Positions 22,408-38,554 of a DNA stretch of 38,554 nucleotides are shown piece by piece. The notes below the pieces were generated by a model. That model was not told where the DNA came from, did no database searches, and worked only from the letters and a program-made list of their open reading frames with translations. The number at the start of each line of letters is the position of its first letter. Positions within the stretch are counted from its first letter, which is position 1. Source of the DNA: Flavobacteriales bacterium (GTDB lineage Bacteria > Bacteroidota > Bacteroidia > Flavobacteriales > BACL11). The position numbers and the translations under genes are program-made. The DNA is taken from the NCBI GenBank assembly GCA_014381465.1, contig JACNLP010000033.1, forward strand, positions 1 through 38,554, written 5' to 3'.

Positions 22408-22446
22408 AAAAGGGGTGGAACAAGTAAGATAAAAACCACCCCTTTT
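22408..22446 (-). terminator. Intrinsic terminator, best in the leftward direction
   Basis: AAAAGGGGTGG (22408-22418) pairs perfectly with CCACCCCTTTT (22436-22446). On the minus strand the stem is followed by seven T, on the plus strand only by TTTTAATA. It therefore mainly terminates leftward transcripts, such as one carrying the small ORF at 22488-22577, while probably also ending ribF transcripts. Confidence 0.8.
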
Positions 22447-22487: not shown

Positions 22488-22577
22488 TTACATTAATAGT
22501 GTTGCCGCTAAGCCAAATAAGAGTAAAATAATAAGAAATATTAAATACGATTTTTCTTTTTCCATAGATACACTCAT
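22488..22577 (-). CDS. Putative 29-residue single-pass membrane protein
   Basis: A small ORF, ATG at 22577 to TAA at 22488. It begins MSVSMEKEKS and is followed by about 19 uninterrupted hydrophobic residues rich in Leu and Ile, ending LLM, so it would be a single membrane helix with a charged N-terminus. A second ATG at 22565 gives a 25-residue form. It lies downstream of the sensor-kinase/regulator operon on the same strand and 42 bp before a terminator in matching orientation. Repeated 10-bp motifs lie upstream. No homologue is recognised. The coding claim rests on membrane-protein composition and context; a chance ORF in AT-rich DNA remains possible. Confidence 0.5.
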   Translation of the reverse strand: MSVSMEKEKSYLIFLIILLLFGLAATLLM

Positions 22578-22589
22578 GAGTCCTGACGG

Positions 22590-22716
22590 TTTAACTTAGA
22601 GGGAGAAAGCGTAAACGCCACTCCAAGTATTATTATTAGTTTAAAAATCATATACAATAATAACTACAAAGAAGGATAAAAAGTATCCGTAATTTTACTT
22701 AGGGGTTTTACGTAGG
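22590..22716 (-). promoter_or_regulatory. Three copies of a TTTWACKTAG motif (possible operator)
   Basis: Plus-strand copies are TTTAACTTAG (22590-22599), TTTTACTTAG (22693-22702) and TTTTACGTAG (22706-22715). The last two are in tandem with a 13-bp period and share a trailing G. They sit between the response regulator gene and the small membrane ORF, upstream of the latter. Binding by the neighbouring NarL-type regulator is an inference. Confidence 0.35.
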
Positions 22717-22782
22717 AAACAAAATGATAATAGGCGCATAATCAAAGCATTAGAAGTTTTTAATGCACAAATGTCATGTTTT

Positions 22783-23427
22783 TTATTTTGGTATCATTTT
22801 GTTTTTTATGGCGAATTTGGTAAGTCCAACAATGGAATTTACGCCCATTTTAAGCATTAAGTTTTTTTTGTGTGTTTCAACAGTTCGCTTACTTATTTGT
22901 AGTATTTCCCCAATTTCAGTATTTGTTTTTTCGGCTACTATTTGTGTGAGTATCTCTATTTCTCTTTCCGTTAGTGCAAGTTTTTTAACTAGTTTGTCGT
23001 TAATTTTTATATTGTTTCTTTGTATATTGCTTATTTTCTTGCTAATGTATTTTTCACCTTTCATACATTTGCTTATTGCTTTTAATATTTCTTTTTTCCC
23101 TAAGTTTTTGCTCATATAAGCATCAGCTCCAGCTTGCATAGCTTTGTTTATAATGTGTTTTTCTTCATACATGCTTAGTACAATTACTTTCATTTTTGGG
23201 TACAGATTTTTCACTTTCTTTGTAAGAGCTATACCGTCCAGAATAGGCATATTAATATCAGTAATTAAAAGGTCGACTTTTGTATATTTTTTTAAAACCT
23301 CTAATACTTCTTCTCCATTTTTGCATTGTGCCAATATCTTAATATTGTCACCCTCAATTATCCCAGAAATTCCTTCTAGGAAAATCTGATGATCGTCAAC
23401 GATAATGGTTCTAATTTTATCAATCAT
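22783..23427 (-). CDS. NarL/FixJ-family response regulator
   Basis: A 214-residue cytoplasmic regulator. The receiver domain (about 5-120) has the acidic pair D11-D12, phosphoacceptor D57 in LLITDINMP, switch residue S85 and K107 in YMSKN. The LuxR-type HTH (about 148-205) shows LALTEREIEILTQIVAEKTN and then ISKRTVETHKKNL with the DNA-reading helix. All phosphorylation residues are present. Its start overlaps the end of the second kinase gene by 4 bp, so it is translated from the same message. The first kinase in the operon keeps its phosphoacceptor His and is the probable phosphodonor. Target genes are unknown; repeated motifs just downstream are a candidate. Confidence 0.95.
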   Translation of the reverse strand: MIDKIRTIIVDDHQIFLEGISGIIEGDNIKILAQCKNGEEVLEVLKKYTKVDLLITDINMPILDGIALTKKVKNLYPKMKVIVLSMYEEKHIINKAMQAGADAYMSKNLGKKEILKAISKCMKGEKYISKKISNIQRNNIKINDKLVKKLALTEREIEILTQIVAEKTNTEIGEILQISKRTVETHKKNLMLKMGVNSIVGLTKFAIKNKMIPK

Positions 23428-25286
23428 TTTTTTATTTTTTTATTGTAATTCATTTTAATAAATATCTTAGTTCCTTTCCCGATTTCAGTATTTATTTTCA
23501 GTTTTCCGCCATATAATTTTACCCTTTGTTTTATATTAAATAACCCTATTCCTTGTTGTTGTTGTTGTTGTTGTTGGTCGAATCCTTTTCCATTATCTTC
23601 TGCTATAATTTCTATTGTATTTTTAGTATCAGAAATTTCAATATTTAGATGTTTAGCTTTTGCGTGCTGCAAAACATTTATTGATAGTTCTTGAATAATT
23701 CTGAATATATTTAGATTTAAATCATTACTAAGTAAATTAAGCGATAGGGGATTTTTGCATAAAAGACTAACTTTGGTACTGCTTTTTTCAAAGATATTCT
23801 CAATATAATTTTCAATAGCAGAAATTAAGTTTTGATTTTCTAAAACAAGTGGAGTCAGATTAAATGCTAATGTATTGGCAAATCTCTCAGCAAATATTAA
23901 CTTAGATAATTCTTCTTTAATTTCTTTTTTAGGACAATTTTTATCTTTGATGCTTCCACTAATACTCTTTTGTATCTTTTTTAACTCCATTCCTATTTGT
24001 TCTTTTAGAAGTTGGGATATTCTTTGAGTTAAAAACTTGTTTGCTGTGTTAATCTTTTTAGCAGCTTTTTCTTTTTCTTTAAGTATTTTTTGTTTGCTTT
24101 TTGTCGCATGTAAATCACTTTCTTTTTTATTTAGAATTTTTAATAAGTTTGTTTTTTTGTTGGTATTAAAAATAAGAAAAGTAACAATACATATAGCAAT
24201 AATAAGAATTATAATTAGTATGTTTCTTTGTTGTTGTTTCCCATGCTGAATCTCTATAATCTTTTCTAGTCTTCTTTTTTCTTTTTCTTTCTCTTTTATT
24301 AATAATTCTGCTTCTTTTCTGGCAATAAAATTTTTTGTTTCTACATTGTTTAAACTATCGCTTAGTTGCTTTTGTAGTATTTTATATTTAAGGGCGTATT
24401 TGTAATTGTTAAGTCCTTTTTGTGCTTTTGCTAAATTACCATAGAATAAAGAAAGATTATTCACTATTTTTAACTCTGTAGCAATTGCAATTGATTTTTC
24501 AAAATATGGTATTGCCTCTTTATATTTTTTCTGAAAAGTTAGCACATTACCGATATTATTATAGGCATGTATAAAATCACTTTTTTTACCATATTCTTTT
24601 TTTATTTTGAGCGATTTTTGATAATATTTTAATGCCAAATCGTACTTAGTTAAGTTCAGATAAATATTTGCCAAATTATTGTAATTATATCCTGTAGATT
24701 TAAAATAAGATTTTTCTAGATTAATTTCAAGGGCTTTATTTATATAATAAAATGCCGAATCATATTTGTTTAATTTGCGATAATAAGAGCCAATATTATC
24801 AACTGTTCGAGCATAGTTTATAGAGTCCTTCATATCAATTAGAATTTCAAGGGCTTTAAAGTTGTAATCCAATCCTTTTCGGTATTTTTTTTCATGACTA
24901 TAAACCCCTCCAATCATTTTATAATTTTGGGCAATAAACTTTTTGTAGCCAATTATTTCAGCTACTTTTAATGAGCGATTATAGTAGTTAATTGCTTCTT
25001 TCATATTACTCAAATAGAAGTTGCAAAGCCCTATTTGATAGAGAGATTCAACTCTTCCTCTTCCAAATTTTTCTTCAATGGAATACGCTAAAGCGTTTTG
25101 TGCAAAAATTAGTGAGGAGTCAATATTAATTTGCTTATACTCTCTTGCCAAATCAAGCATATTTTTTATTTTCATGGAATCTTTTACTGCTGATTTTTCG
25201 TCTTTCCAAATGCTATTATTTGTATCGATAAGCTGTGCAGAAAGCTGAACTGCAACAAATAGTAATATGAAAGTTATTTTTTTCAT
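23424..25286 (-). CDS. TPR sensor histidine kinase homologue lacking the phosphoacceptor His
   Basis: A 620-residue membrane protein with a signal peptide (MKKITFILLFVAVQLSAQ), about six periplasmic tetratricopeptide repeats (60-310; for example GNLAKAQKGLNNYKYALKY), a coiled segment, one TM helix at 355-373, then a dimerisation helix and an HATPase_c domain. Where HisKA_3 kinases have ELHDGLG, this protein has LLKEQIG (K428 replaces His and E429 replaces Asp). The ATP-binding boxes look intact: N537 in IQELSINVLQ, DNGKG at 564-568, GIGLFNIKQRV from 579. Eight consecutive Gln (571-578) sit in the ATP lid. It overlaps its neighbours on both sides by 4 bp. It probably acts as a pseudokinase partner or as a trans-acting ATPase for the first kinase. 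Confidence 0.88.
   Translation of the reverse strand: MKKITFILLFVAVQLSAQLIDTNNSIWKDEKSAVKDSMKIKNMLDLAREYKQINIDSSLIFAQNALAYSIEEKFGRGRVESLYQIGLCNFYLSNMKEAINYYNRSLKVAEIIGYKKFIAQNYKMIGGVYSHEKKYRKGLDYNFKALEILIDMKDSINYARTVDNIGSYYRKLNKYDSAFYYINKALEINLEKSYFKSTGYNYNNLANIYLNLTKYDLALKYYQKSLKIKKEYGKKSDFIHAYNNIGNVLTFQKKYKEAIPYFEKSIAIATELKIVNNLSLFYGNLAKAQKGLNNYKYALKYKILQKQLSDSLNNVETKNFIARKEAELLIKEKEKEKRRLEKIIEIQHGKQQQRNILIIILIIAICIVTFLIFNTNKKTNLLKILNKKESDLHATKSKQKILKEKEKAAKKINTANKFLTQRISQLLKEQIGMELKKIQKSISGSIKDKNCPKKEIKEELSKLIFAERFANTLAFNLTPLVLENQNLISAIENYIENIFEKSSTKVSLLCKNPLSLNLLSNDLNLNIFRIIQELSINVLQHAKAKHLNIEISDTKNTIEIIAEDNGKGFDQQQQQQQQGIGLFNIKQRVKLYGGKLKINTEIGKGTKIFIKMNYNKKIKK
23553..23576 (-). repeat. 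(CAA)8 trinucleotide repeat coding for polyglutamine
   Basis: Eight perfect CAA codons in the second kinase gene (TTG on the plus strand), placed between the DNGKG and GIGLF boxes of the ATP-binding domain. Slippage would change the number of Gln residues without shifting the frame. Confidence 0.95.
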
Positions 25287-27094
25287 ATAGTTTTTTTACT
25301 AATCGGAATTCTAATATCAATAGTTGTACCTCTTGCTTTTTCGCTATCAATATACATTGTTCCATCAATAAGTTTTAGCCGATCGGCACATAATGATATC
25401 CCTTTATTGTCGGGTATTTTTTTAGAATTTTCTATACCAATCCCGTTATCCTCTATCAGCAAACTCAAATAATTTTCATGAGCAATAATATGTATATTAA
25501 CCTTTGTTGCATTAGCATAGGATACAATGTTTTCGCATAGTTCTTGTAAAATTCTATAAACAGCAAGTTTTATATTGCTTTCTAATTTGTTTAATTCCTT
25601 TTTTGGTAATAAATCAATAACTAATTGTATGCTGGTATTTTCAAATTGATTTTGAAGATAATCTTTTAATATATTACTAAAGCTACTACCCTTTAGAGTA
25701 GGTGGTGTTAAGCTATGGGAGATACTTCTTACTTTTTGATATATTGCATCAATTTCTTGTATAGAATTTTGCAAATTAAGGAATTCATTTTCCTTTTGTA
25801 TTTGACTTAAATTAATTCGAATACTTGCTAGAGTTCCTCCCAATCCATCATGCAATTCTTTTGCTATTCTTTCTTTTATTTGCTCATGATCTTCAGTAAT
25901 ACTAACAGTAGAATTAATTAGTTCCGTTCTAATTTTTTCTTGCAAATCAATTTCTTTTTTCTGTATATCTTTTTCTGCAATAGATTTAATAATATTTTTT
26001 TTGTTGGAGGCATTAATAGTAAGTACAAAAAGCACAAAAAGAGCAATAAGTAAAAATCCAATAAGTACCAATTTTTGGTTCAGCTCTCTTTTTTCGGTTA
26101 ATTCTTCTATTTCTAATAGCTCTTGTTCTTCTATTAAGAGTTGTGCCGAAAGTTCTGCTTCCTTTTTTTCAATACTTATTCTTGTTTCAACATTTAGTAT
26201 GCTATCGTTAATAGAAATATATTCCGCATAATAATTATATGCATTTTTATAGTCACCCAAATTTTCGTAAGAAGTATAAATATTAACTAAGTATTTTGGC
26301 ACTTCATTAAGTATTTTTGCTTTGTAACTTAGTCCCAAACTCTTTTTAAAAAAAGGTATTGCAGTTGTATAGTTTTGTTGTAAAAACTGAAGATATCCCA
26401 AGTTGTTATAGCTTTGGATTATTCCTAAAGGGTTGCCAATTTCGTATCTTATTAATAATGATTTTTCGAAATATTCCCCTGCTTTTTTATAATCCTTTCT
26501 TCTAGCATAAATAATTGCTAAATTGTTGTAATTAAAGGATAATCCTTTTTTGTAGTCAATTTTTTTATTTATTTCTATTGCTTTTTTATGATAGTAAATG
26601 GCAGAATCAGTTTCTCCTAAGCGCTTATGGAAAATACCAATAATATCTAGTGCGTTTGAAATATTTACTGAATCGTTTTCGGTTTCTGCTAAGTGTAAGG
26701 CTTGTCTGGAAATTTGTAATCCTTTGTCATATTTTTTTTGCTGTTTGCTTATTTTAGCCATTGTTATTTTGGCAATAATTATTTCTTTTTTGGCATTTAT
26801 TTTACCTGCAATTTTTAGGGCTTGTGTTACTATTTCTACCGTTTTTAAATAATCTCCTTTCTGATAATATGCTGAGGCAATGCTGTTTAAACTAATTGCT
26901 TGCCCTATTTCGCATTTTTTTTTCAAAGCAAACTCAAGTGCTTTTTCTGATAGAAAAAGTGAAGAGTCAGCATTTTCTTGTAAAATATTCTTAGCAATAA
27001 TATTAAAACTATCTACTATGCAGTTATGTTCCTGTGCCTTAGAAAAGGTGCAAAGTAGAATCAAAGAAAATATAAGCCAACTTTTTAACTTCAA
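25283..27094 (-). CDS. TPR sensor histidine kinase (HisKA_3 type)
   Basis: A 603-residue sensor kinase. It has a signal peptide (LKSWLIFSLILLCTFSKAQ), periplasmic TPR repeats from about 45 to 300 (for example YNNLGYLQFLQQNYTTAIPFFK-type helices), a coiled coil rich in Glu, one TM helix at 341-360, the dimerisation helix RIAKELHDGLGGTLASI with phosphoacceptor H415, the X-box SHSLTPPTL, and an HATPase_c domain with N522 and DNGIG at 549-553. It should phosphorylate the NarL-type regulator encoded two genes downstream. Translation starts at a TTG (27092-27094); a stop lies four codons upstream in frame. A -7 box lies 17 nt before the start. It overlaps the second kinase gene by 4 bp (ATGA). Confidence 0.93.
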   Translation of the reverse strand: MKLKSWLIFSLILLCTFSKAQEHNCIVDSFNIIAKNILQENADSSLFLSEKALEFALKKKCEIGQAISLNSIASAYYQKGDYLKTVEIVTQALKIAGKINAKKEIIIAKITMAKISKQQKKYDKGLQISRQALHLAETENDSVNISNALDIIGIFHKRLGETDSAIYYHKKAIEINKKIDYKKGLSFNYNNLAIIYARRKDYKKAGEYFEKSLLIRYEIGNPLGIIQSYNNLGYLQFLQQNYTTAIPFFKKSLGLSYKAKILNEVPKYLVNIYTSYENLGDYKNAYNYYAEYISINDSILNVETRISIEKKEAELSAQLLIEEQELLEIEELTEKRELNQKLVLIGFLLIALFVLFVLTINASNKKNIIKSIAEKDIQKKEIDLQEKIRTELINSTVSITEDHEQIKERIAKELHDGLGGTLASIRINLSQIQKENEFLNLQNSIQEIDAIYQKVRSISHSLTPPTLKGSSFSNILKDYLQNQFENTSIQLVIDLLPKKELNKLESNIKLAVYRILQELCENIVSYANATKVNIHIIAHENYLSLLIEDNGIGIENSKKIPDNKGISLCADRLKLIDGTMYIDSEKARGTTIDIRIPISKKTI

Positions 27095-27150: not shown

Positions 27151-29409
27151 CTATTTAACTATTTCCAATTTAGCAAATTTTAGGAGTAATATTTTCTGTC
27201 CAATACCTTCAAAAAATACAGTTGCTTTCTTGTTGGCACCTTCTCCTTCAATTTTTAAGATTTTTCCATTGTAAAAACGGCTGTGTTTTACTTTTGTTCC
27301 TACTTGAAAATTTTCAGTATTGCTTGGAGAAATTGGTGCATTAGTAGTGTTTACTTTTCTCAAGTTATTTGGAATAGAAATTGGGCTTTTTTTTGCTTTT
27401 TTTGTTTTTGCAAATATTTTGTAAGGATTTTTTTGGATTGGTTTTTTACTTAATTTTATTTCACTCTCTTTGATGAACTTTTTATTTAATTCTTCCAAAA
27501 ACCTACTTGCTTTACAATCGGTATATTGCCCCCATTTAAAGCGACTAAGAGCATAAGATAAAAATAGGCGTTTTTCGGCTCTAGTAATGGCTACATAAAA
27601 GAGTCGTCTTTCTTCTTCTAATCCTTCTCTTCCATCCATTGCCATCATTGATGGGAATAGGTTTTCTTCTAGTCCCACCACAAAAACAAAAGGAAACTCT
27701 AATCCCTTTGCTGCATGAATAGTCATAAGAGTAACTTTGTTGTAGTCATCCTCTTTTTCATTGTCCGCATCCGTTAAAAGAGCTACATCTTGCATGAAGA
27801 ATTCTAAAGTATTATTTTCTTCTTTTTCGCTAAAATCTTTTATGCCGTTTAATAGTTCTTGCAGGTTTTCAAATCTGCTAAGTCCTTCTACCGATTTATC
27901 AGAATACAAATTGTGAAATACACCAGAAGTTTTTGCAATTTGCTCTGCCAAAGTGTAAGCATCTAAACTTTCTTTTTGTACAATATAACTGTTTATTAGT
28001 GTTGCGAATTGAGATAATTTATCAGCCGTTCCTTTGTTTATTGTTACTTTATATTTTTCTAAATTTAAAATTACCTCCCAAATGCTTATTTCATTGATGT
28101 TTGCTGCAATAATTAGTTTCTGTAGAGTAGTGTTGCCAATTCCTCTTGTTGGATAATTGATTATTCTTTTAAGGGATTCCTCATCTTTTGGATTAATACA
28201 CATTCTAAAATAAGCCAGTACATCTTTCACTTCCTTTCGGGCATAGAAAGATAGTCCGCCATATATTTTGTAAGGAATATTTTTCTTTCTAAGGGACTCT
28301 TCTAAAGCCCTGCTTTGTGCATTAGTTCTATAAAGAATTGCAAACTCATTAAATTTTGCATTTTGCTTAAAATAAAGTTCCCAAATTGTGTTTGCAACTA
28401 TTCTTCCTTCCTCATTATCATTTAGTGTTTTGCAAATAATTATTTTCTCTCCAGAGTTGTTTTCAGTCCACACCTCTTTTTCAATTTGTTTTTTATTGTG
28501 GGTGATTAAACTGTTTGCTAAGTTTACTATATTGGAAGTGGAGCGATAATTCTGCTCCAATTTAAAAGTTTTAAAATCAGGATAATCCACTTTAAAATTG
28601 AGGATATTTTGAATATTAGCCCCTCTAAAAGAATAAATACTTTGAGCATCATCACCCACTACGCAAATGTTTTCGTTAAGAGCCGCCAATTTTTTAATAA
28701 TGAGGTATTGCACATGGTTTGTGTCTTGGTACTCATCCACCAAAATATATTTGAATTTGTTTTGGTATTTGTACAGAACATCTGGAAATTCATTGAGTAA
28801 ATGATAGGTGTTTAAAAGTAAATCATCAAAATCCATAGCACCAGATTTGAAACATCTTTGATTATATTTTTGGTAAATTGAGCCGAAAGCATCCCGCTTT
28901 GCAATTTTATCGGTTTGTAAAAGTTCTGGCGAATTCCCATAATCTTTTGGTGTAATAAAATTATTTTTAAGCCCTGAAATTCTATTCTGAATAAGTCCCG
29001 GTTTGTAAATGTCTTTGTCAAGCCCCATTTCTTTAATAATACTTTTTATCAAGCTTTTGGAGTCGGTAGTATCATAAATGGTAAAATTAGAAGTGTAGTT
29101 TATTTTTTCTGCCTCAACTCGCAACATCTTTGAAAAAACTCCATGAAAAGTGCCCATCCACAGATTGCGGGCTTCTGTACTTTCCACAATTGTTTCTATT
29201 CTGTTTCGCATTTCTTTTGCTGCTTTATTGGTAAAAGTAAGCGCTAAGATATTAAAGGCATCTGTCCCAGATTTTATAAGGTGTGCAATTCTAAAAGTAA
29301 GCACCCTTGTTTTACCTGATCCAGGCCCTGCAATTACCATCATTGGCCCGTCTAAATTGCTAACGGCTTGCAGTTGAGATTGGTTTAGTTGCTCTAAATA
29401 GTTTGTCAT
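27151..29409 (-). CDS. UvrD/PcrA-type superfamily 1A DNA helicase
   Basis: A 752-residue 3'-5' helicase for DNA repair and replication-conflict removal. Motifs in order: LNQSQLQAV (Q motif), AGPGSGKT (27-34, Walker A), ALTFTNKAAKEM (Ia), DEYQDTN (II), GDDAQSIYSFRGA (III), EQNYRST (IV), TIHAAKGLEFPFVF (V) and VAITRAEKRLFL (VI). The C-terminus GTKVKHSRFYNGKIL is the Tudor-like domain of PcrA that contacts RNA polymerase in characterised members. The frame extends to an ATG at 29526, but the extra 39 residues are hydrophobic, unlike the family, and lie over the candidate promoter, so the ATG at 29409 (MTNYLEQLNQ) is chosen. It is divergent from the SprB-type gene. Confidence 0.94.
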   Translation of the reverse strand: MTNYLEQLNQSQLQAVSNLDGPMMVIAGPGSGKTRVLTFRIAHLIKSGTDAFNILALTFTNKAAKEMRNRIETIVESTEARNLWMGTFHGVFSKMLRVEAEKINYTSNFTIYDTTDSKSLIKSIIKEMGLDKDIYKPGLIQNRISGLKNNFITPKDYGNSPELLQTDKIAKRDAFGSIYQKYNQRCFKSGAMDFDDLLLNTYHLLNEFPDVLYKYQNKFKYILVDEYQDTNHVQYLIIKKLAALNENICVVGDDAQSIYSFRGANIQNILNFKVDYPDFKTFKLEQNYRSTSNIVNLANSLITHNKKQIEKEVWTENNSGEKIIICKTLNDNEEGRIVANTIWELYFKQNAKFNEFAILYRTNAQSRALEESLRKKNIPYKIYGGLSFYARKEVKDVLAYFRMCINPKDEESLKRIINYPTRGIGNTTLQKLIIAANINEISIWEVILNLEKYKVTINKGTADKLSQFATLINSYIVQKESLDAYTLAEQIAKTSGVFHNLYSDKSVEGLSRFENLQELLNGIKDFSEKEENNTLEFFMQDVALLTDADNEKEDDYNKVTLMTIHAAKGLEFPFVFVVGLEENLFPSMMAMDGREGLEEERRLFYVAITRAEKRLFLSYALSRFKWGQYTDCKASRFLEELNKKFIKESEIKLSKKPIQKNPYKIFAKTKKAKKSPISIPNNLRKVNTTNAPISPSNTENFQVGTKVKHSRFYNGKILKIEGEGANKKATVFFEGIGQKILLLKFAKLEIVK

Positions 29410-29519: not shown

Positions 29520-32500
29520 ATGGCAAAACGGCTACTCTTTTTTCTTCTTTTTTTTGTTTCTGTCAGTGTATATTCGCAATGTCCAGTTAATATTCTGTCG
29601 GTTGATTCGGTTGATTGTAATGGGGGGCAGAATGGTAGCATTACCGTAAGCCCAACAGTTTCTGGTTACTGGACTTATACTTTGCAAATCTGGAATTCTG
29701 CTGTAAACATGTGGATGCCTTTTGGGACAATTAACACAGGGAGTCCCTCTTACACTTTTATCAATCTTCCTTCTGATAGTTTTAGAGTTTTAGTGGAAGA
29801 TACATTACTTTCAACTCCTCCTACTGGTTGTGTATCTGCAGGAGTTTTTGTACCACAGCCAGATATCTTAATTGCCACATCAGCTTCAACTAACGAAAGC
29901 ACTCCAGGAGCTTGTGATGGTACAATAAACTTGAATGTTTCTGGTGGTACGCTACCCTATACTTATTCATGGACAGGCCCTAGTGGTTTTACTTCAAATA
30001 GTCAGAACATTAATAACTTATGTGCTGGAATTTATACACTATCTATCACTGATAATAATAATTGTATTGAAACATTAATAGATACTATTTCTTCTCCAAT
30101 AATTTGTGATGTAGTCGTTAATGTTGTGGAGCAAGTAATGTGTCCGGGAGGCAATGATGGAGTGGCACAAATTACTAATGGCTCGGCTTCTTTTCAAGTA
30201 TTTTTATGGGAAAATTTAACGGATGGTAATGTTTATGGAAACGGACCATTAACAACAAATACCAATTTAGCTAGTGGATGGTATCAGGTTACTGGAACAG
30301 ATTTTACAGGCAATTGCATTGTAACGGTTTCTGATAGTTTTTATGTGGCAGAGCCAACGCCTTTTATTCAAAGTAGCCAATTTGCTTGTATTGGTGATAG
30401 TGTGCAACTTTCAGTGGATTTGATAAATCCAAAGCCAGGTGTAACTTATTCTTTTAGTGTGAATGGAAATGCGAATACTTATTCGATTGGCTCCACCTCA
30501 TTGGATTATTTACAAATAGGCAATCATTATTATACGCTTTTTGCTGATACAGGAACAGTTCCTTTTAGTTGTGGAGGAAATATACCTTTTTCTATTTCCG
30601 GCATTAATGCCATGAATATCACTATTGACTCAACCCTTGAAACTTGCCGTGCTAATGATGCAAGTATCAGTATATTTGCCTCTGGTGGAGGCGGAACACT
30701 CACTTATTCTATTGATGGTGGAAATACTTTTTTTACTAATTCAGTTTTTACAAATTTAACTGCTGGAAATTATGATGTATTTGTGCAAGAATCTGGAGGT
30801 TGTGTGCAGTCTTATGCGAATAATCCTGTAATTATTGGAGTAACACCAATTAATTATGTAGTAGATTCTGTAAAAGCAGTAGAGGAAAGTTGTTGTGGCA
30901 ATGACGGAAAAATTCAAATATTTACTTCAGGAACGGATTCTACACTTAGCTATTCTATTGATTCCATGATCAGCTGGCAAGATTCTTCTAGATTTCATTT
31001 TCTAACGGAAGGAAATTATTATGTAGTAGTTGAAGATACCAATGGTTGCAGAACAGATTGGGGATATGTTTCAATCTTTGCAGATTCAGTACCCGATATT
31101 GATATGACGGTTGATGTTACCGATATTGTTTGCAATGGAGATACTAATGGAACTTTCCGTGTACTTAATCCAGATTCCTGCTATTCTTATGCTTTATGGA
31201 GATATACCATTTCTCCTCCATATTATATTCCTGTTGATACGGGCACTTATTTCAATGGTTTAATACCGGGCGCTTATGGGGTAATCGCTACATCAAATAC
31301 AGGAAATTGTATAGATTCCTCTTTGGCTGTAGTGATTGATGAACCAACTCAGCTTGTACAAAACGGCATTGCAGTTCAAGAAGTAAGATGTTCTAATAAT
31401 GGTATTTGTGATGGTGAAATTACTTTAACTGCTTCTCCAACTGGCGGTATTCCACCCTATTATTATTCTATTTTAGACTATGGAAATAATATTCCTTTTG
31501 GGCCAATTAGTAGTGATTCACTGTTTTCAGGGCTCTGTACCGATTCCTTTGAAGTAACCCTATTTGACGCCAATGCTTGTAAAGTAATTGATACGGTTTT
31601 TGTTGCGGATTCTACTCTCTATATTGATTCTATAATTACAACAAATGTGAGTTGTTTTAGCTATGGTGATGCAACAGCAATAGTTTATGCACATGGTGGA
31701 TACACCCCTTATTCTTACGCATGGTCCAATGGAGATTCTACTATGATAGTTGATAGTTTAACCAATATACAGTATTCGGTAATTGTTGCCGACACACAAA
31801 ATTGTGTGGCTTATGACACCATAAACATCACACAACCTGGAGAGTTGTTTTTCAATATTAAAGTGGTGGATGGGTATAAGCCAGAGAGTTGTAAAGGAGT
31901 AAGTTATGATGGAGAGTTTTATATGAATTATCAAGGAGGAACAGCTCCTTTTAATTGGAGTTGGATTGGAACTTCTGGGGCATCAGCTTCTGGTTTTGGC
32001 GATACTATTTTTAATTTAACTTTTGACACACTTACCTTATCAGTTGCAGATGCCAATGGATGTATAGGTCAGCCAGCTTGGATACATGCTGATTCGGCAA
32101 GAGTAGATGCACTTAATGCACTCAATCCACTTGTTTTGGATACCGTAATTGCAGATAGTATTTTGTGTTATGGAACAATGTTAGATACTCTTTTTATTGT
32201 TGTAAAAAGTGGAGAAGCAGCTTACACTTATTCCATTGATAGCGGACTTACTTTCACTAGCGATTCTAATTTTTTAAATCTTCCTGCTGGCAATTATGAT
32301 ATTGAAGTTCGGGATGTTTTTGGCTGTTCGGTTTATTCCAATATCACCATAACACAAGCGCCTGAAATCATTATTTTTAACGATAGTATAAAACACATAA
32401 GTTGTTATGAAGGGACGGATGGCTATCTGTCTATTTCAGTAGTAGGAGGCTATGCCCCTTACAGTTATTTATGGGATCCAGCAGGGAGCACAAACAATTT

Positions 32501-33860
32501 TGCTGATAATCTTTCCGTAGGGATGCAAGGTGTTTCTGTTACCGATTCTACAGGATGTATGCAAGTAGATTCTATTTCTGTTGTTGAATTAACACTGCCG
32601 CTTACTTCCAATGCTATTGTTACATCTCATGCATCTTGTTACGATTCTGCAAATGGAAGTGCTACTATTAAAATTCAAGGTGGTATGTTGCCTTATACTG
32701 TGGATTGGGCAGGTGCCGACAGCAATGCAATGCCTTTTGGAACATATATAATCACCATTAACGATAGTTTTAATTGCCGCCCAATTTCTGATACTATTGA
32801 GATTTTACAACCAAATCAGTTTTTAATACAAACTTCATCCATTACGGCTAATCCTTGTTTTGGGGATGCTCTTGGCGAATTAATATTAACTGCAAGCGGA
32901 GGAACTATGCCTTACAATCAGTATTTTGTAAGAAATGAGCAAGGCAATGTGTTACTAAACAACAGCCCTTCTATTGTTGGTTTGCAGGCTTCTAATTATG
33001 ATATTTGGGCAATGGATGCAAATGGTTGCCCATCTGACACTTTAAAGAGTGTAAAAGTAGGGGAGCCGGGTGAAATTAAAATCAATGTAAATAACCATAT
33101 TAATGCTAGTTGTTTTAATTCGGATGATGGTGTTTTGGAATTGACTTTAATAAGCGGAACAGCTCCTTATGATTATGAACTTTCTGAGAATGGGAATACA
33201 ATTACTCAAGGAAATATAAACCAAACAACCCTGCTTATTTTTGATAATTTATCGGCAACTTCTTATTTGCTTAGTATAACAGATTCTAACAATTGCCCTA
33301 AAGATTCTGTGATTGAAATAATTGAACCAAACCAAATTATTGCTGATTTTACATCTGATAACACGAGCGGAAAAGAAACTTTTACTGTAAACTTAACGAA
33401 TAATAGTCAAGGAGCGGATGTATTTGTTTGGGATTATGATGATGGCAGCCAAGATATTTTAGGGATAGGTGAAATGCCAACTCATAGCTACAACAAACAA
33501 GGGCAATACGAAATAATGCTTGTTGCTGAGAATTCTTTACTTAGTCAAAGTTGTAACGATACCATAACTTTAATTATTGATGTTCAGGGTTTTGATGTGT
33601 TTAATGTATTCTCACCAAATGATGATGGGGTAAATGATGTCTTTGAATTTGATGATTGGGATTTGTCTAGCATGTATGTTGAAATATATAATAGATGGGG
33701 TGAGAAAATTTTCCATTGGGATTCTCCAAATGGAAGTTGGAACGGGAAAACTTATAATGATGATGATGCTCCTGATGGGGTGTATTATTTTTACCTGAAA
33801 GCCAATGGTGTGGATGGGTATTTGTACAATCAGCAAGGTAGTATCACGCTTTTACGATAA
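29520..33860 (+). CDS. Giant SprB-repeat surface protein with PKD and CHU_C (T9SS type B) domains
   Basis: A 1446-residue exported protein. A signal peptide (AKRLLFFLLFFVSVSVYSQ) is followed by about 14 diverged SprB-type repeats of roughly 80-100 residues. Each opens with a Cys-Gly-Asp core (VDCNGGQNGSI, VMCPGGNDGVA, IVCNGDTNGTF, ISCYEGTDGYL, ASCYDSANGSA) and ends with a strand such as GNYDIEVRDVFGC. A PKD-like domain lies at about 1280-1350 (VFVWDYDDGSQ, THSYNKQGQYEI). The last 85 residues are the gliding-motility C-terminal domain: NVFSPNDDGVNDVFEF, YNRWGEKIF, NGKTYNDDDAPDGVYYFYL. This domain directs type IX secretion. Likely role is an adhesin or surface filament, by analogy with SprB. 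It is the first of two adjacent genes of this type. Confidence 0.93.
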   Translation: MAKRLLFFLLFFVSVSVYSQCPVNILSVDSVDCNGGQNGSITVSPTVSGYWTYTLQIWNSAVNMWMPFGTINTGSPSYTFINLPSDSFRVLVEDTLLSTPPTGCVSAGVFVPQPDILIATSASTNESTPGACDGTINLNVSGGTLPYTYSWTGPSGFTSNSQNINNLCAGIYTLSITDNNNCIETLIDTISSPIICDVVVNVVEQVMCPGGNDGVAQITNGSASFQVFLWENLTDGNVYGNGPLTTNTNLASGWYQVTGTDFTGNCIVTVSDSFYVAEPTPFIQSSQFACIGDSVQLSVDLINPKPGVTYSFSVNGNANTYSIGSTSLDYLQIGNHYYTLFADTGTVPFSCGGNIPFSISGINAMNITIDSTLETCRANDASISIFASGGGGTLTYSIDGGNTFFTNSVFTNLTAGNYDVFVQESGGCVQSYANNPVIIGVTPINYVVDSVKAVEESCCGNDGKIQIFTSGTDSTLSYSIDSMISWQDSSRFHFLTEGNYYVVVEDTNGCRTDWGYVSIFADSVPDIDMTVDVTDIVCNGDTNGTFRVLNPDSCYSYALWRYTISPPYYIPVDTGTYFNGLIPGAYGVIATSNTGNCIDSSLAVVIDEPTQLVQNGIAVQEVRCSNNGICDGEITLTASPTGGIPPYYYSILDYGNNIPFGPISSDSLFSGLCTDSFEVTLFDANACKVIDTVFVADSTLYIDSIITTNVSCFSYGDATAIVYAHGGYTPYSYAWSNGDSTMIVDSLTNIQYSVIVADTQNCVAYDTINITQPGELFFNIKVVDGYKPESCKGVSYDGEFYMNYQGGTAPFNWSWIGTSGASASGFGDTIFNLTFDTLTLSVADANGCIGQPAWIHADSARVDALNALNPLVLDTVIADSILCYGTMLDTLFIVVKSGEAAYTYSIDSGLTFTSDSNFLNLPAGNYDIEVRDVFGCSVYSNITITQAPEIIIFNDSIKHISCYEGTDGYLSISVVGGYAPYSYLWDPAGSTNNFADNLSVGMQGVSVTDSTGCMQVDSISVVELTLPLTSNAIVTSHASCYDSANGSATIKIQGGMLPYTVDWAGADSNAMPFGTYIITINDSFNCRPISDTIEILQPNQFLIQTSSITANPCFGDALGELILTASGGTMPYNQYFVRNEQGNVLLNNSPSIVGLQASNYDIWAMDANGCPSDTLKSVKVGEPGEIKINVNNHINASCFNSDDGVLELTLISGTAPYDYELSENGNTITQGNINQTTLLIFDNLSATSYLLSITDSNNCPKDSVIEIIEPNQIIADFTSDNTSGKETFTVNLTNNSQGADVFVWDYDDGSQDILGIGEMPTHSYNKQGQYEIMLVAENSLLSQSCNDTITLIIDVQGFDVFNVFSPNDDGVNDVFEFDDWDLSSMYVEIYNRWGEKIFHWDSPNGSWNGKTYNDDDAPDGVYYFYLKANGVDGYLYNQQGSITLLR

Positions 33861-33936: not shown

Positions 33937-33949
33937 TAAAAAATTATTG

Positions 33950-36900
33950 ATGATGAAAAAAGTATTTTTAGTAGTAATAATAGCACTTATTAGCTTTGCG
34001 CCTGCAAAAGCATCTCACTTAATGGGCGGGGAAATAACTTGGACTTGTATAACAACTCCAGGAGCAACACAAGGGATGTATATTTTCAAATTAAAAGTAT
34101 ATAGAGATTGTAATGGGATTTCTGCACCTACTACTACTCAAACTATAGATGTACATAACCATCCTAGTATAACTGGAATATCAGTAGATTTTATAAGCCA
34201 AATAGATATTTCTCCTTTATGCGATCCAGTGAATAGTGGTAATGGACAAATAGATTGTGGAAACCCTCAACAAGGATCGGTAGAGGAGTATATATATGAG
34301 TCGCAACCAATTACACTTGCAGGTATTCCCCCAGCAGGAGGTTGGCATTTTACTTGGGAAAATTGCTGTAGAAATAGTGCGATAACAAATCTTACTAATC
34401 CTTCTGCTCTAGGTTTTACGCTTAGGGCAGTAATGTACCCTTATACTATTGCTGGCGTGCCTCAAAATACTTCTCCTTGTTTTGATTCTTCTCCACAATT
34501 TAATGAACAACCAAAGACAATCATTTGTATTGGATATCCTTTTTCTTATAGTCATAATGCATCTGACCCTGAATTAGATAGCTTAGTTTATTCTTGGGGA
34601 GACCCATTAGATGATGGTGGTTATAATCCTGCGGCACCAACAATAATTCCTTTTATGGCTCCATATACTCTAAATAGCCAAATACCATCTAATTTATCAG
34701 TTCCTCCAGGGGTAACTATGGACTCTCAAACAGGAGAAATTTCTTATTACACTAATCTCTCAGGAAACTTTGTTACTTGTGTGCGAGTTTCTGCTTATAA
34801 ATGTGGGCAATTGGTAGCAGATGTTTATAGAGAAATACAAGTTGTGCTTTTAAATTGCCCAAATTTAGCAGCAGGAAATCCTAATACACCACCAGTTGTT
34901 TTACCGCCTTTTCCTGGACCATCTTATTCTACCCAGGTGGTTGCAGGTACTTTAGTGAGTTTTAATATTATGGGAACCGATAGTAATGTATATGCCAATG
35001 GCTCTGCTCAAGATTTAACAATGGAGGTTTCCGGTGGGCAGTTTGCCACTGATTTTTTTACTACTTCTCTTTGTGATAATCCTCCTTGTGCTACATTTAA
35101 TAATTTGGCAGGAGTTACACCTCCATTTTCAGCACCATCAGTGGTTGAAGGGGTGTTTAATTGGCAGACTTCTTGTAGTCATATTGCAGTAAATGCTGGG
35201 TGTAATACTACCTCTAACCTTTATACTTTTGCTATAAAAGTAGTGGATGATTTTTGTCCGGCACCAGCCATTACTTTTGCTACAATTACTATTGAAGTAA
35301 TTGCTGCACCTGCAAGCGTAGAGCCAGATTTTACTTGTGCTTTTGCCAATAATAATGGAGATGTAGCGCTTTCATGGAATCACCTTCCAGGAGCTAACCC
35401 TGCTACAACTTATCATATATATTCATCTAATACTGCAAATGGTCCTTTTACTTTAGTAGATTCAATGTATTATCCAATTGATACTTATGTGGATGCTGCT
35501 GTGAATGCAAATATTTCATCTGTATTTTATTATATGACTACTTCTTCTAATTGTGCGGGAATATCCCCACCATCCGATACTTTAGAATCAATTACATTTA
35601 ATGCTGGAAGTGATTATTTTACTTGTACTGGAGTGCAAATGACTAATACTACCGTAATAGGCGGAAGCAATGCCACTTATTCTTGGACACCAATTATAGG
35701 ATTAAGCGATCCTACAATTGCACAACCCTTTGCAAATCCAGGAGTTACTACAACCTATTATTTGGATATTACCACACAAAACGGCTGTGTAATTTCTGAT
35801 TCGGTTACAGTATTTTATAATGTTGGTTTTATAAATCTTAATGATAGTTCCCAGAATGTGAGTTGCTGGGATGGTAATGATGGACAAATTGCAGTTTATG
35901 CTTCAGGAGGAACACCTCCTTATAACTATTATATTAATGGGAACTTAAATCCGAATCCTCCTCCTTATGACTCTTTGTTTACTGGCTTAACAGTTGGAAC
36001 TTACATTATTACAGTAACAGATGCACAAAGTTGTGCGGAAACAGGGCCTGTAACTTTGGTTGGTCCTGGCTACCCTTTACAAGTTATTACTTCTGATTCT
36101 ATCGCTATTTGTTATGGCGATTCTAATGGAGTGGCAAATGCTTGGGGAGCTGGGGGAACAGCCGCTTATAGTTTTGAGTGGTTTAATTCTGCTCAAGTTT
36201 CTTTTTCCAATAATGCTAGTGTAACGGGTTTACATGCTGGTTCTTATTTTGTAGAAATCACAGATGCACTTGGTTGTGATACTTTCAAAACGGTAAATGT
36301 AGTTCAATCTCAAACACCTCTTACTGCCTCTATTCAGATAATGGATGTTTCTTGTAAGGGTGATAGTACAGGGTATATTGTCGCCACAGCTGTGGGAAGT
36401 TATGCACCTTACTCTTATGTTTGGCTAAACGGCTCTGACACTTTAAGAAGTGCTAGCCTACCAGTTGATATTACAAGAGATAGTTTGAATAATTTAGTAG
36501 CAGGAAGTTATGAATTGCACATATATGATGCTGCAGGATGTTTTGAAAGCTATTCCAATGTGGTGAGTGAACCAACTAATGCTCTTGTTTCTACCTTAAA
36601 TAAAATAAATGATGTGGATTGTTATGGTGATAGTACTGGACAAGTGCAAGTTGTTGCTTCTGGTGGAGTACCTGCTTATTCCTATATTTGGGATGATGTA
36701 GTGGTGAATTCACCAATAGTTTCCAATTTAAATGCTGGCCTTCATACGGTTTGGATTACAGATGATTGGAATTGTACTATTATAGATACCATCACTATTT
36801 TTGAAAACCCTTTAATTGAAGATTCCATAACTATTATTCAAAATGTAAGTTGCCATGGCGGAAATGATGGATCTGTTGTCATTACAAGTTCTGGCGGTTT

Positions 36901-38554
36901 TTCAACCCATTCGTACGATTGGAGTAATGGGCATCAAGGCATATCCCAACCTGATATCAATTCAGGATTATTGTTTGGTTCCTATTATGTAATAGTGGAA
37001 GACCAATTGGGTTGTAGAGTTGTAGATAGTGTTTTTATTTCTGAGCCAGATGTATTGGAAACAGAAGCGAGTCTTGTAGCACATATCAATTGCTACGGCT
37101 ATGATGATGGTATTGCCTCAGCTTCTGGAATGGGCGGAACAGAACCTTACTCTTTTAGTTGGAATCCTGGTGGACAAACAGGCGATACTGCTTTTGGTTT
37201 AACGCCAGGGGTACATACTGCTTATCTGACAGATGCCAAGGGTTGTATGGCTAATGATACGGTAACAATTATAGAACCTGCCGAGTTGTTTGTCAACATT
37301 ATTGATAGCTTAACCATATTGGCTTACTGTACAGGAGTAAATTCTGCTTCCCTTACAGCAGTTGCAAGTGGAGGAACTCCAAACTATACTTATATGTGGG
37401 ATGATAATATAGTAGTGCCTCAAACTACCCCAACAGCTACGGCACTTTTTGCTGGTATTTATACCATCACAGTTACAGATAGTAGAGGGTGTATTGCAAC
37501 TGACACAAGAGATATTGATACGATTACCGCAACAATGGATGCAAAAATTGATACGCAACTTTACAATGGAAATGTAAACATTAGTTGTTTTGGTGAAAAT
37601 GATGGAATGGCAATTGTTTCTACTTGGGGTGCTCATGCTCCTTATACTTATCAATGGTTTGGGCCGAACAATTATACCGCCACCAATGATTCTATTGACG
37701 ATTTATTTGCTGGAACTTATTCCGTAACTATTAACGATACTAATAATTGTTCCATAAACAGAAGCATAAATCTTACTCAACCCAGTGCATTACAATATAC
37801 CACTTTTGCTTCTTCCAATGAAAGTTGTTTAGGTGCTGCAAACGGAACAGTAAGTATAGATATCCAGGGAGGATCTTCTCCTTTTACAGCAATAGCAACT
37901 GATAACAATTCAGGGGTAACAACTACTCATCCAATGCAAAATGATAGTATTATTCCTGGAATTACTTCAGGGATTTTTACCATTACTTTAACGGATGTTA
38001 ATAATTGTAGCAGTACTTTAATTCAAGGAGGAAATAATCAGCAAATCATAGGAACAAGCATAGCAACTTATGCCAATATAAATCCTGCTACTGTTGTGCA
38101 TCTCAATTGTTATGGAATTTCAAATGGAGCTCTTTCTGTATTTAATCCTTTGTCTTCTCCAAGCTACACTTATAGTTGGGAAGACCTTTTTGGAAATGTA
38201 GTAAGTACCGATACCATAGCTGATAGTTTAGCAGCAGAAACTTATGTGCTTTTTGCTCATTATTCCGACTCAATGGGGGCTTATCCTGGCTGTACAACCA
38301 CCGATACTATAATTTTAACTCAGCCAAATGAAATTGTTATTACACCAACATTACTAAAAGATGCAGATTGTTTTGGCGATAATTCGGGAAGGATCCAAAC
38401 GCAAATTACTGGAGGAACTCGATTCCCTGGTCCGCCTAACAATTGGTACCAAATACTTTGGAATTCTGGGCAAACTACTAGAAATATAAATAATTTAACT
38501 GCAGGCACTTATATCATCAATATTACAGATGCAAACGGTTGTATTCAAGCCGAT
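33950..38554 (+). CDS. Giant SprB-repeat surface protein, cut by the window edge (partial)
   Basis: An open frame of 1535 codons with no stop to the right edge. It starts MMKKVFLVVIIALISFAPAKA, a signal peptide, then the common Bacteroidota adhesin opening SHLMGGEITWTC with YRDCNG (about residues 23-60). Residues up to about 450 form a Cys-containing head with cadherin- or PKD-like pieces (SYSHNASDPELDSLVYSW). A fibronectin-III-like part follows (LSWNHLPGANPATTYHIYSS), then at least eleven SprB-type repeats from about residue 630 (VSCWDGNDGQI, VSCKGDSTGYI, VDCYGDSTGQV, VSCHGGNDGSV, ADCFGDNSGRI), each ending in a strand like GTYIITVTDAQSC. The C-terminal sorting domain must lie beyond the window. 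It is a probable T9SS-exported adhesin, tandem with the complete SprB-type gene 89 bp upstream. Confidence 0.9.
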   Translation, partial: MMKKVFLVVIIALISFAPAKASHLMGGEITWTCITTPGATQGMYIFKLKVYRDCNGISAPTTTQTIDVHNHPSITGISVDFISQIDISPLCDPVNSGNGQIDCGNPQQGSVEEYIYESQPITLAGIPPAGGWHFTWENCCRNSAITNLTNPSALGFTLRAVMYPYTIAGVPQNTSPCFDSSPQFNEQPKTIICIGYPFSYSHNASDPELDSLVYSWGDPLDDGGYNPAAPTIIPFMAPYTLNSQIPSNLSVPPGVTMDSQTGEISYYTNLSGNFVTCVRVSAYKCGQLVADVYREIQVVLLNCPNLAAGNPNTPPVVLPPFPGPSYSTQVVAGTLVSFNIMGTDSNVYANGSAQDLTMEVSGGQFATDFFTTSLCDNPPCATFNNLAGVTPPFSAPSVVEGVFNWQTSCSHIAVNAGCNTTSNLYTFAIKVVDDFCPAPAITFATITIEVIAAPASVEPDFTCAFANNNGDVALSWNHLPGANPATTYHIYSSNTANGPFTLVDSMYYPIDTYVDAAVNANISSVFYYMTTSSNCAGISPPSDTLESITFNAGSDYFTCTGVQMTNTTVIGGSNATYSWTPIIGLSDPTIAQPFANPGVTTTYYLDITTQNGCVISDSVTVFYNVGFINLNDSSQNVSCWDGNDGQIAVYASGGTPPYNYYINGNLNPNPPPYDSLFTGLTVGTYIITVTDAQSCAETGPVTLVGPGYPLQVITSDSIAICYGDSNGVANAWGAGGTAAYSFEWFNSAQVSFSNNASVTGLHAGSYFVEITDALGCDTFKTVNVVQSQTPLTASIQIMDVSCKGDSTGYIVATAVGSYAPYSYVWLNGSDTLRSASLPVDITRDSLNNLVAGSYELHIYDAAGCFESYSNVVSEPTNALVSTLNKINDVDCYGDSTGQVQVVASGGVPAYSYIWDDVVVNSPIVSNLNAGLHTVWITDDWNCTIIDTITIFENPLIEDSITIIQNVSCHGGNDGSVVITSSGGFSTHSYDWSNGHQGISQPDINSGLLFGSYYVIVEDQLGCRVVDSVFISEPDVLETEASLVAHINCYGYDDGIASASGMGGTEPYSFSWNPGGQTGDTAFGLTPGVHTAYLTDAKGCMANDTVTIIEPAELFVNIIDSLTILAYCTGVNSASLTAVASGGTPNYTYMWDDNIVVPQTTPTATALFAGIYTITVTDSRGCIATDTRDIDTITATMDAKIDTQLYNGNVNISCFGENDGMAIVSTWGAHAPYTYQWFGPNNYTATNDSIDDLFAGTYSVTINDTNNCSINRSINLTQPSALQYTTFASSNESCLGAANGTVSIDIQGGSSPFTAIATDNNSGVTTTHPMQNDSIIPGITSGIFTITLTDVNNCSSTLIQGGNNQQIIGTSIATYANINPATVVHLNCYGISNGALSVFNPLSSPSYTYSWEDLFGNVVSTDTIADSLAAETYVLFAHYSDSMGAYPGCTTTDTIILTQPNEIVITPTLLKDADCFGDNSGRIQTQITGGTRFPGPPNNWYQILWNSGQTTRNINNLTAGTYIINITDANGCIQAD

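Follow-up and report, generated by a model that had tools for sequence, protein, structure and literature searches.

Among the closest described systems is FasBCAX of group A Streptococcus, in which two kinase-like genes and one regulator are followed by a small effector that has a regulator-driven promoter of its own, and in which the kinases are reported to form a heterodimer with one non-catalytic partner (PMC12675982). PhoQ/PhoP-MgrB likewise has a small membrane protein under regulator control as part of a two-component system (PMC2789325). In the HrrS/ChrS pseudokinase heterodimers, a defective kinase dimerises with its paralogue and alters the output (PMC9491836), and DesK/VraS/NarX-type (HisKA_3) kinases with NarL regulators have the same domain content as the genes considered here. 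We compared these systems with a locus in a 38,554-nucleotide stretch (the window; contig JACNLP010000033.1) of a 1.98-Mb draft genome from the Flavobacteriales, an order that also includes genomes of 200–600 kb.

All features named in a first-pass annotation of this DNA are present where it had placed them. On the minus strand lie a TPR sensor histidine kinase of 603 aa (HKa, 25283–27094), a TPR kinase paralogue of 620 aa (HKb, 23424–25286) and a NarL/FixJ-type response regulator of 214 aa (RR, 22783–23427), with the annotated 4-bp overlaps at both the HKa/HKb and HKb/RR junctions. They are followed by two very short, overlapping reading frames, ORF1 and ORF2, so that the order kinase-kinase-regulator-small effector is that of FasBCAX. 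The annotation knew of no described module of this kind, which needs qualifying as to the order; our literature search, with subscription papers largely outside its reach, returned neither a system with the same combination nor any account from Bacteroidota that links small membrane peptides to a two-component system. The Fas effector, however, is an sRNA, whereas ORF1 and ORF2 are protein-coding; the Fas kinases have six transmembrane segments, and the site bound by FasA is ComE-like; and FasC, thought dispensable for catalysis, holds the histidine, whereas here it is the histidine-less HKb that keeps its catalytic domain. MgrB is a single-gene product of 47 aa rather than two coupled peptides of 25–29 aa adjoining the regulator gene. 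In HrrS/ChrS, which also places a defective kinase beside its paralogue, the ATPase domain was lost by laboratory evolution, whereas HKb has lost the histidine and kept the ATPase domain. The DesK/VraS/NarX-type systems differ from the locus in its TPR input, its duplicated, histidine-less second kinase and its peptide-pair target.

Our preferred reading, to which we assign a probability of roughly 60%, is that the locus encodes a two-component system acting mainly, as far as can be seen, on the adjoining two-peptide operon, with HKb as a histidine-less partner of HKa. HKa and HKb would sense a signal through their TPR domains, which are probably periplasmic. The HKa histidine would carry the phosphate, which HKb, with no histidine at the normal place, could not do; HKb, with its intact ATP-binding domain, might phosphorylate HKa in a mixed dimer or else alter HKa activity. 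Phosphorylated RR would then bind a conserved element at 22688–22714 and activate the promoter of ORF1-ORF2, whose transcript would start no more than about 1 nt from the ORF1 ATG. ORF1 would be translated from this leaderless mRNA, ORF2 next through an ATGA overlap, and both single-pass peptides would act in the inner membrane. RR binding, activation, the leaderless start and the mixed dimer are inferred, and the element is a candidate RR binding site.

HKa has a signal peptide-like N-terminus, TPR repeats, one transmembrane segment at 342–360, a HisKA_3 domain with the motif ELHDG, in which the phosphoacceptor His of the DHp helix is followed by Asp (D/E is usual for the family), and a HATPase_c domain. 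In HKb, Pfam recognises TPR and HATPase_c but not HisKA_3, and Lys and Glu stand where HKa has the phosphoacceptor His and the next Asp (local sequence RISQLLKEQIG). This His is kept in 87 of the 88 other kinases in a set taken from the fetched loci. The annotation of one kinase as lacking it was correct. The HATPase_c matches of both proteins are above the Pfam cut-off, and the N, G1 and G2 boxes of HKb are intact, with the essential N, D, G, G, the second G2-box Gly and the Arg all kept. AlphaFold2 models the HKb core confidently as a kinase (pLDDT 84), and the best solved-structure matches in Foldseek put its predicted DHp-CA fold near VraS and DesK. A run of CAA codons (23556–23582) gives about eight glutamines in the HKb ATP lid and is possibly a variable-length repeat. 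HKa for its part departs from consensus at several semi-conserved ATP-lid positions; the scored positions were picked after inspection, and we make no claim that HKa is the weaker ATPase in a division of labour.

The first-pass annotation had treated the kinase pair as a possible conserved module, and this did not hold up: two kinases occur at the locus in the window genome only, and relatives with a complete module all have a single kinase. HKb could on that account be a decaying pseudokinase duplicate without a role, leaving an ordinary HKa-RR two-component system. Its presence in a single genome and on a long branch, the loss of the His together with most of the conserved DHp residues around it, and the frequency of loss at this locus are all consistent with decay. 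However, its 620 codons remain open and its 4-bp overlaps are kept, its deviations from consensus are concentrated in the DHp helix while all essential ATP-binding residues persist in a near-consensus CA domain, and its model is well folded; we consider decay unlikely. HKa also lies on a long branch, and the placement of both kinases in the tree is not resolved. For the preferred reading, an HKa-HKb heterodimer is plausible because the ATP-binding domain of HKb is intact and because FasBC and HrrS/ChrS provide precedents.

RR has Response_reg and GerE domains (Pfam) and the features expected of the NarL/FixJ family (acid pocket, Asp, Lys and GerE helix-turn-helix), with D11, D12, D57 and K107 invariant in the alignment of the RR2 group. 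Because it gives the single GerE-domain match in the source genome and thus looks like its only NarL-type regulator, the question of its target is unusually simple. In our tree it falls outside a well-supported RR1 clade, with or beside RR2, and it is related to the RR2 of three Flavobacteriales/Cryomorphaceae MAGs, G034 (JACNFT010000087), G048 (CATEYX010000079) and G049 (JABJNS010000043). The regulators of G012, G030 and G044 are of the RR1 type, unlike that of the window, and yet G044 has the clearest promoter element. Viral contigs yielded distant regulator fragments only.

Downstream of RR, a single 29-codon membrane ORF had been annotated. This frame, ORF2 (22488–22577, minus strand; MSVSMEKEKSYLIFLIILLLFGLAATLLM), is real and more than a chance frame, being conserved and under purifying selection; relatives align from the Met at 22565. 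It is not alone, since an overlapping upstream frame had been overlooked, ORF1 (22574–22651, minus strand; MIFKLIIILGVAFTLSPSKLNRQDS), which encodes a hydrophobic peptide of 25 aa. The overlap between the two reads ATGA in the window, and TAATG in G012, G034 and G049. By hydropathy each has roughly the length of one membrane helix, as a single-pass, MgrB-like peptide under the predicted control of its cognate regulator would be. Profile HMM searches found ORF1 in 7 of 346 genomes of the order (E 5e-6 to 2e-17) and ORF2 in six (G000, G012, G030, G034, G048 and G049; E 3e-9 to 2e-16). In 6 of the 7 genomes the pair lies between a NarL regulator and ribF, the order RR, small ORFs, convergent ribF recurring in G012, G034, G044, G048 and G049. 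The exception is G030, where the pair, with its own hairpin, is flanked by an rlmD-like gene and a rocD-like one (named from the look of their translations). ORF1 is the steadier partner, because ORF2 is damaged in G044 by an internal TGA and probably also in G048, where ATA replaces the ATG start (entered as M in row 5 of alignment A1). Weaker matches in other genomes (E > ~5e-4) look like noise; one (G050, C226) is contained in a long coding frame and another (G031, C94) runs antisense to such a frame.

Because the frames are very short and the DNA is AT-rich, ORF1 and ORF2 might be chance ORFs within a conserved promoter or RNA. Against this, synonymous change clearly exceeds non-synonymous change in several comparisons, and does so only when the true frame is read (ORF1 G012-G030: pS 0.78, pN 0.21, P 1e-4; ORF2 window-G012: pS 0.73, pN 0.29, P 1e-3), the other frames giving no signal at P 0.05, although the coding test for ORF1 alone was not significant for window-G030 or window-G012. 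The alignment also contains a codon-sized gap, no structure signal was found in the upstream RNA, and the pair is intact at the unrelated G030 locus. Chance ORFs are thus very hard to credit, and the small-peptide family looks both real and undescribed.

Beyond ORF2 stands a hairpin with an 11-bp stem (22408–22446) that has z-scores of −3.1/−3.6 and is kept in relatives. It had been described as the small ORF's own terminator; the hairpin is instead a two-way one, shared by the small operon and the convergent ribF. An Rfam search of the region gave no family above its gathering score. One match below that score, to n00280 (an sRNA family derived from a helicase gene), lies within uvrD at 27545–27642 on the minus strand and is probably merely conserved helicase coding sequence. 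Also adjoining the locus is a large SprB-repeat/CHU_C (type IX secretion) protein (29520–33860, plus strand); after it comes another large repeat protein, secreted-looking and cut off by the end of the window (33947–38554, plus strand).

Repeated motifs had been annotated upstream of the small ORF, and what matters among them is a 27-bp element on the minus strand, TACG...CTAAG...TTACG (22688–22714), the copy at 22590 falling within ORF1. Five upstream regions, those of the window and four relatives, have TACG-N18-20-TTAC(G/T) with a CTTAG-like centre. The distance from the end of the element to the ORF1 ATG downstream is 37 bp in each of the relatives, and 36 bp in the window itself. When the matrix was derived from the relatives only, 22688–22714 ranked first among the 77,056 positions in the window, and 5000 dinucleotide shuffles of the intergenic sequence yielded no score as high; the second-best matrix score in the window marks a possible, weaker tandem copy (22659–22685, minus strand). 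The three half-site-like blocks lie about 11 bp apart, as would be expected of tandem NarL-type dimers on one face of the DNA. Exact and 3-mismatch pattern searches matched single genomes only because the element is too variable, and a sequence model of it picked out no other good site in the source genome (next match E 6.7). In G048, a second element (C116; L264, 6098–6128; 23 bits) stands with a decayed ORF1-like start and is apparently a degenerate copy of the small operon/ORF1 promoter.

A TAnnTTTG-like box follows the element after 25 bp, and the ATG starts 3–4 nt beyond it; in the window the putative flavobacterial −7 box, assigned from the consensus, is TATTATTG (22655–22662, minus strand), 3 nt before the ORF1 start. 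In Flavobacterium psychrophilum the TAnnTTTG box occupies positions −12 to −5, and leaderless transcripts make up 5.5% of mRNAs (PMC9723704); a box in this position just before the ATG therefore predicts a leaderless ORF1 transcript.

Regulation of the small ORFs by RR has a competing explanation, namely that they are independent of it, chance neighbours transcribed by read-through of the operon. The interval from RR to ORF1 yielded no terminator-like site, and the small operon can exist without the element, since the element is deleted in G012 and not recognisable beside the relocated G030 pair. (In G012, at L033 6660–6740, the regulator gene extends across what was the promoter, so that its stop overlaps the ORF1 start.) Conservation of the element and its spacing across two genera, and decay of the small ORFs alongside the kinase and regulator in G038, speak against independence, which we regard as quite unlikely. 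The regulator-to-small-protein link proposed in the first-pass annotation is supported by the conserved gene order, the promoter element at fixed spacing and the decay of the small ORFs where kinase and regulator are lost.

The surroundings of the locus show how readily the module is lost. uvrD, ribF and atpD form a fixed backbone in the family, and uvrD directly adjoins ribF in about 32 genomes, including all three of the same genus. A kinase and/or RR intervenes in 13 genomes, three of which have a contig end inside the module: the arrangement is kinase-RR1-RR2 in G048 and G034, kinase-RR1 in G012, G030, G044 and genus g2 (G004, G018, G027), and kinase-RR1 as far as the contigs extend in g8 (G010, G040, G043). 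G023 retains an RR fragment (L090 4180–4540) and G038 only decayed small ORFs, its kinase and RR being gone (L088 2500–2760).

This distribution bears on what the peptides do. They might bind the membrane segments of the kinases and damp or boost them, much as MgrB, itself PhoP-regulated, inhibits PhoQ (PMC2789325): each is about as long as one membrane helix, and small ORFs are confined to genomes where the kinase-RR pair is present or has left traces of having been lost. An effector that protects the envelope, however, would give the same co-occurrence, neither sequence nor structure gives any sign of peptide-kinase contact, and six genomes of two other genera keep a kinase and/or RR without recognisable peptides. 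Feedback on the sensors, which the first-pass annotation suggested, is a tentative but serious possibility that ranks level with at least one other. We lean slightly toward an envelope effector because the G030 pair is intact though moved from the kinase locus and because two other genera retain the kinase-RR pair with no recognisable peptides. The most elaborate version, a closed feedback circuit in which an obligate mixed kinase (HKb catalytic domain, HKa histidine) and a dedicated RR drive a leaderless two-peptide operon that tunes the sensors, is a long shot; if true, it would be of a kind not described in Bacteroidota.

Genes as short as ORF1 and ORF2 are usually missed by gene callers, and the pair is a conserved instance under selection, for which a binding site is predicted. 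Whether a kinase that lacks its histidine can still serve as a catalytic partner is a question for which HKb provides a natural test case. G023 and G038 represent relatives caught mid-loss of the module, and, if the relatives are marine as their isolate names suggest, the locus shows each stage in the loss of an entire module from small marine genomes.
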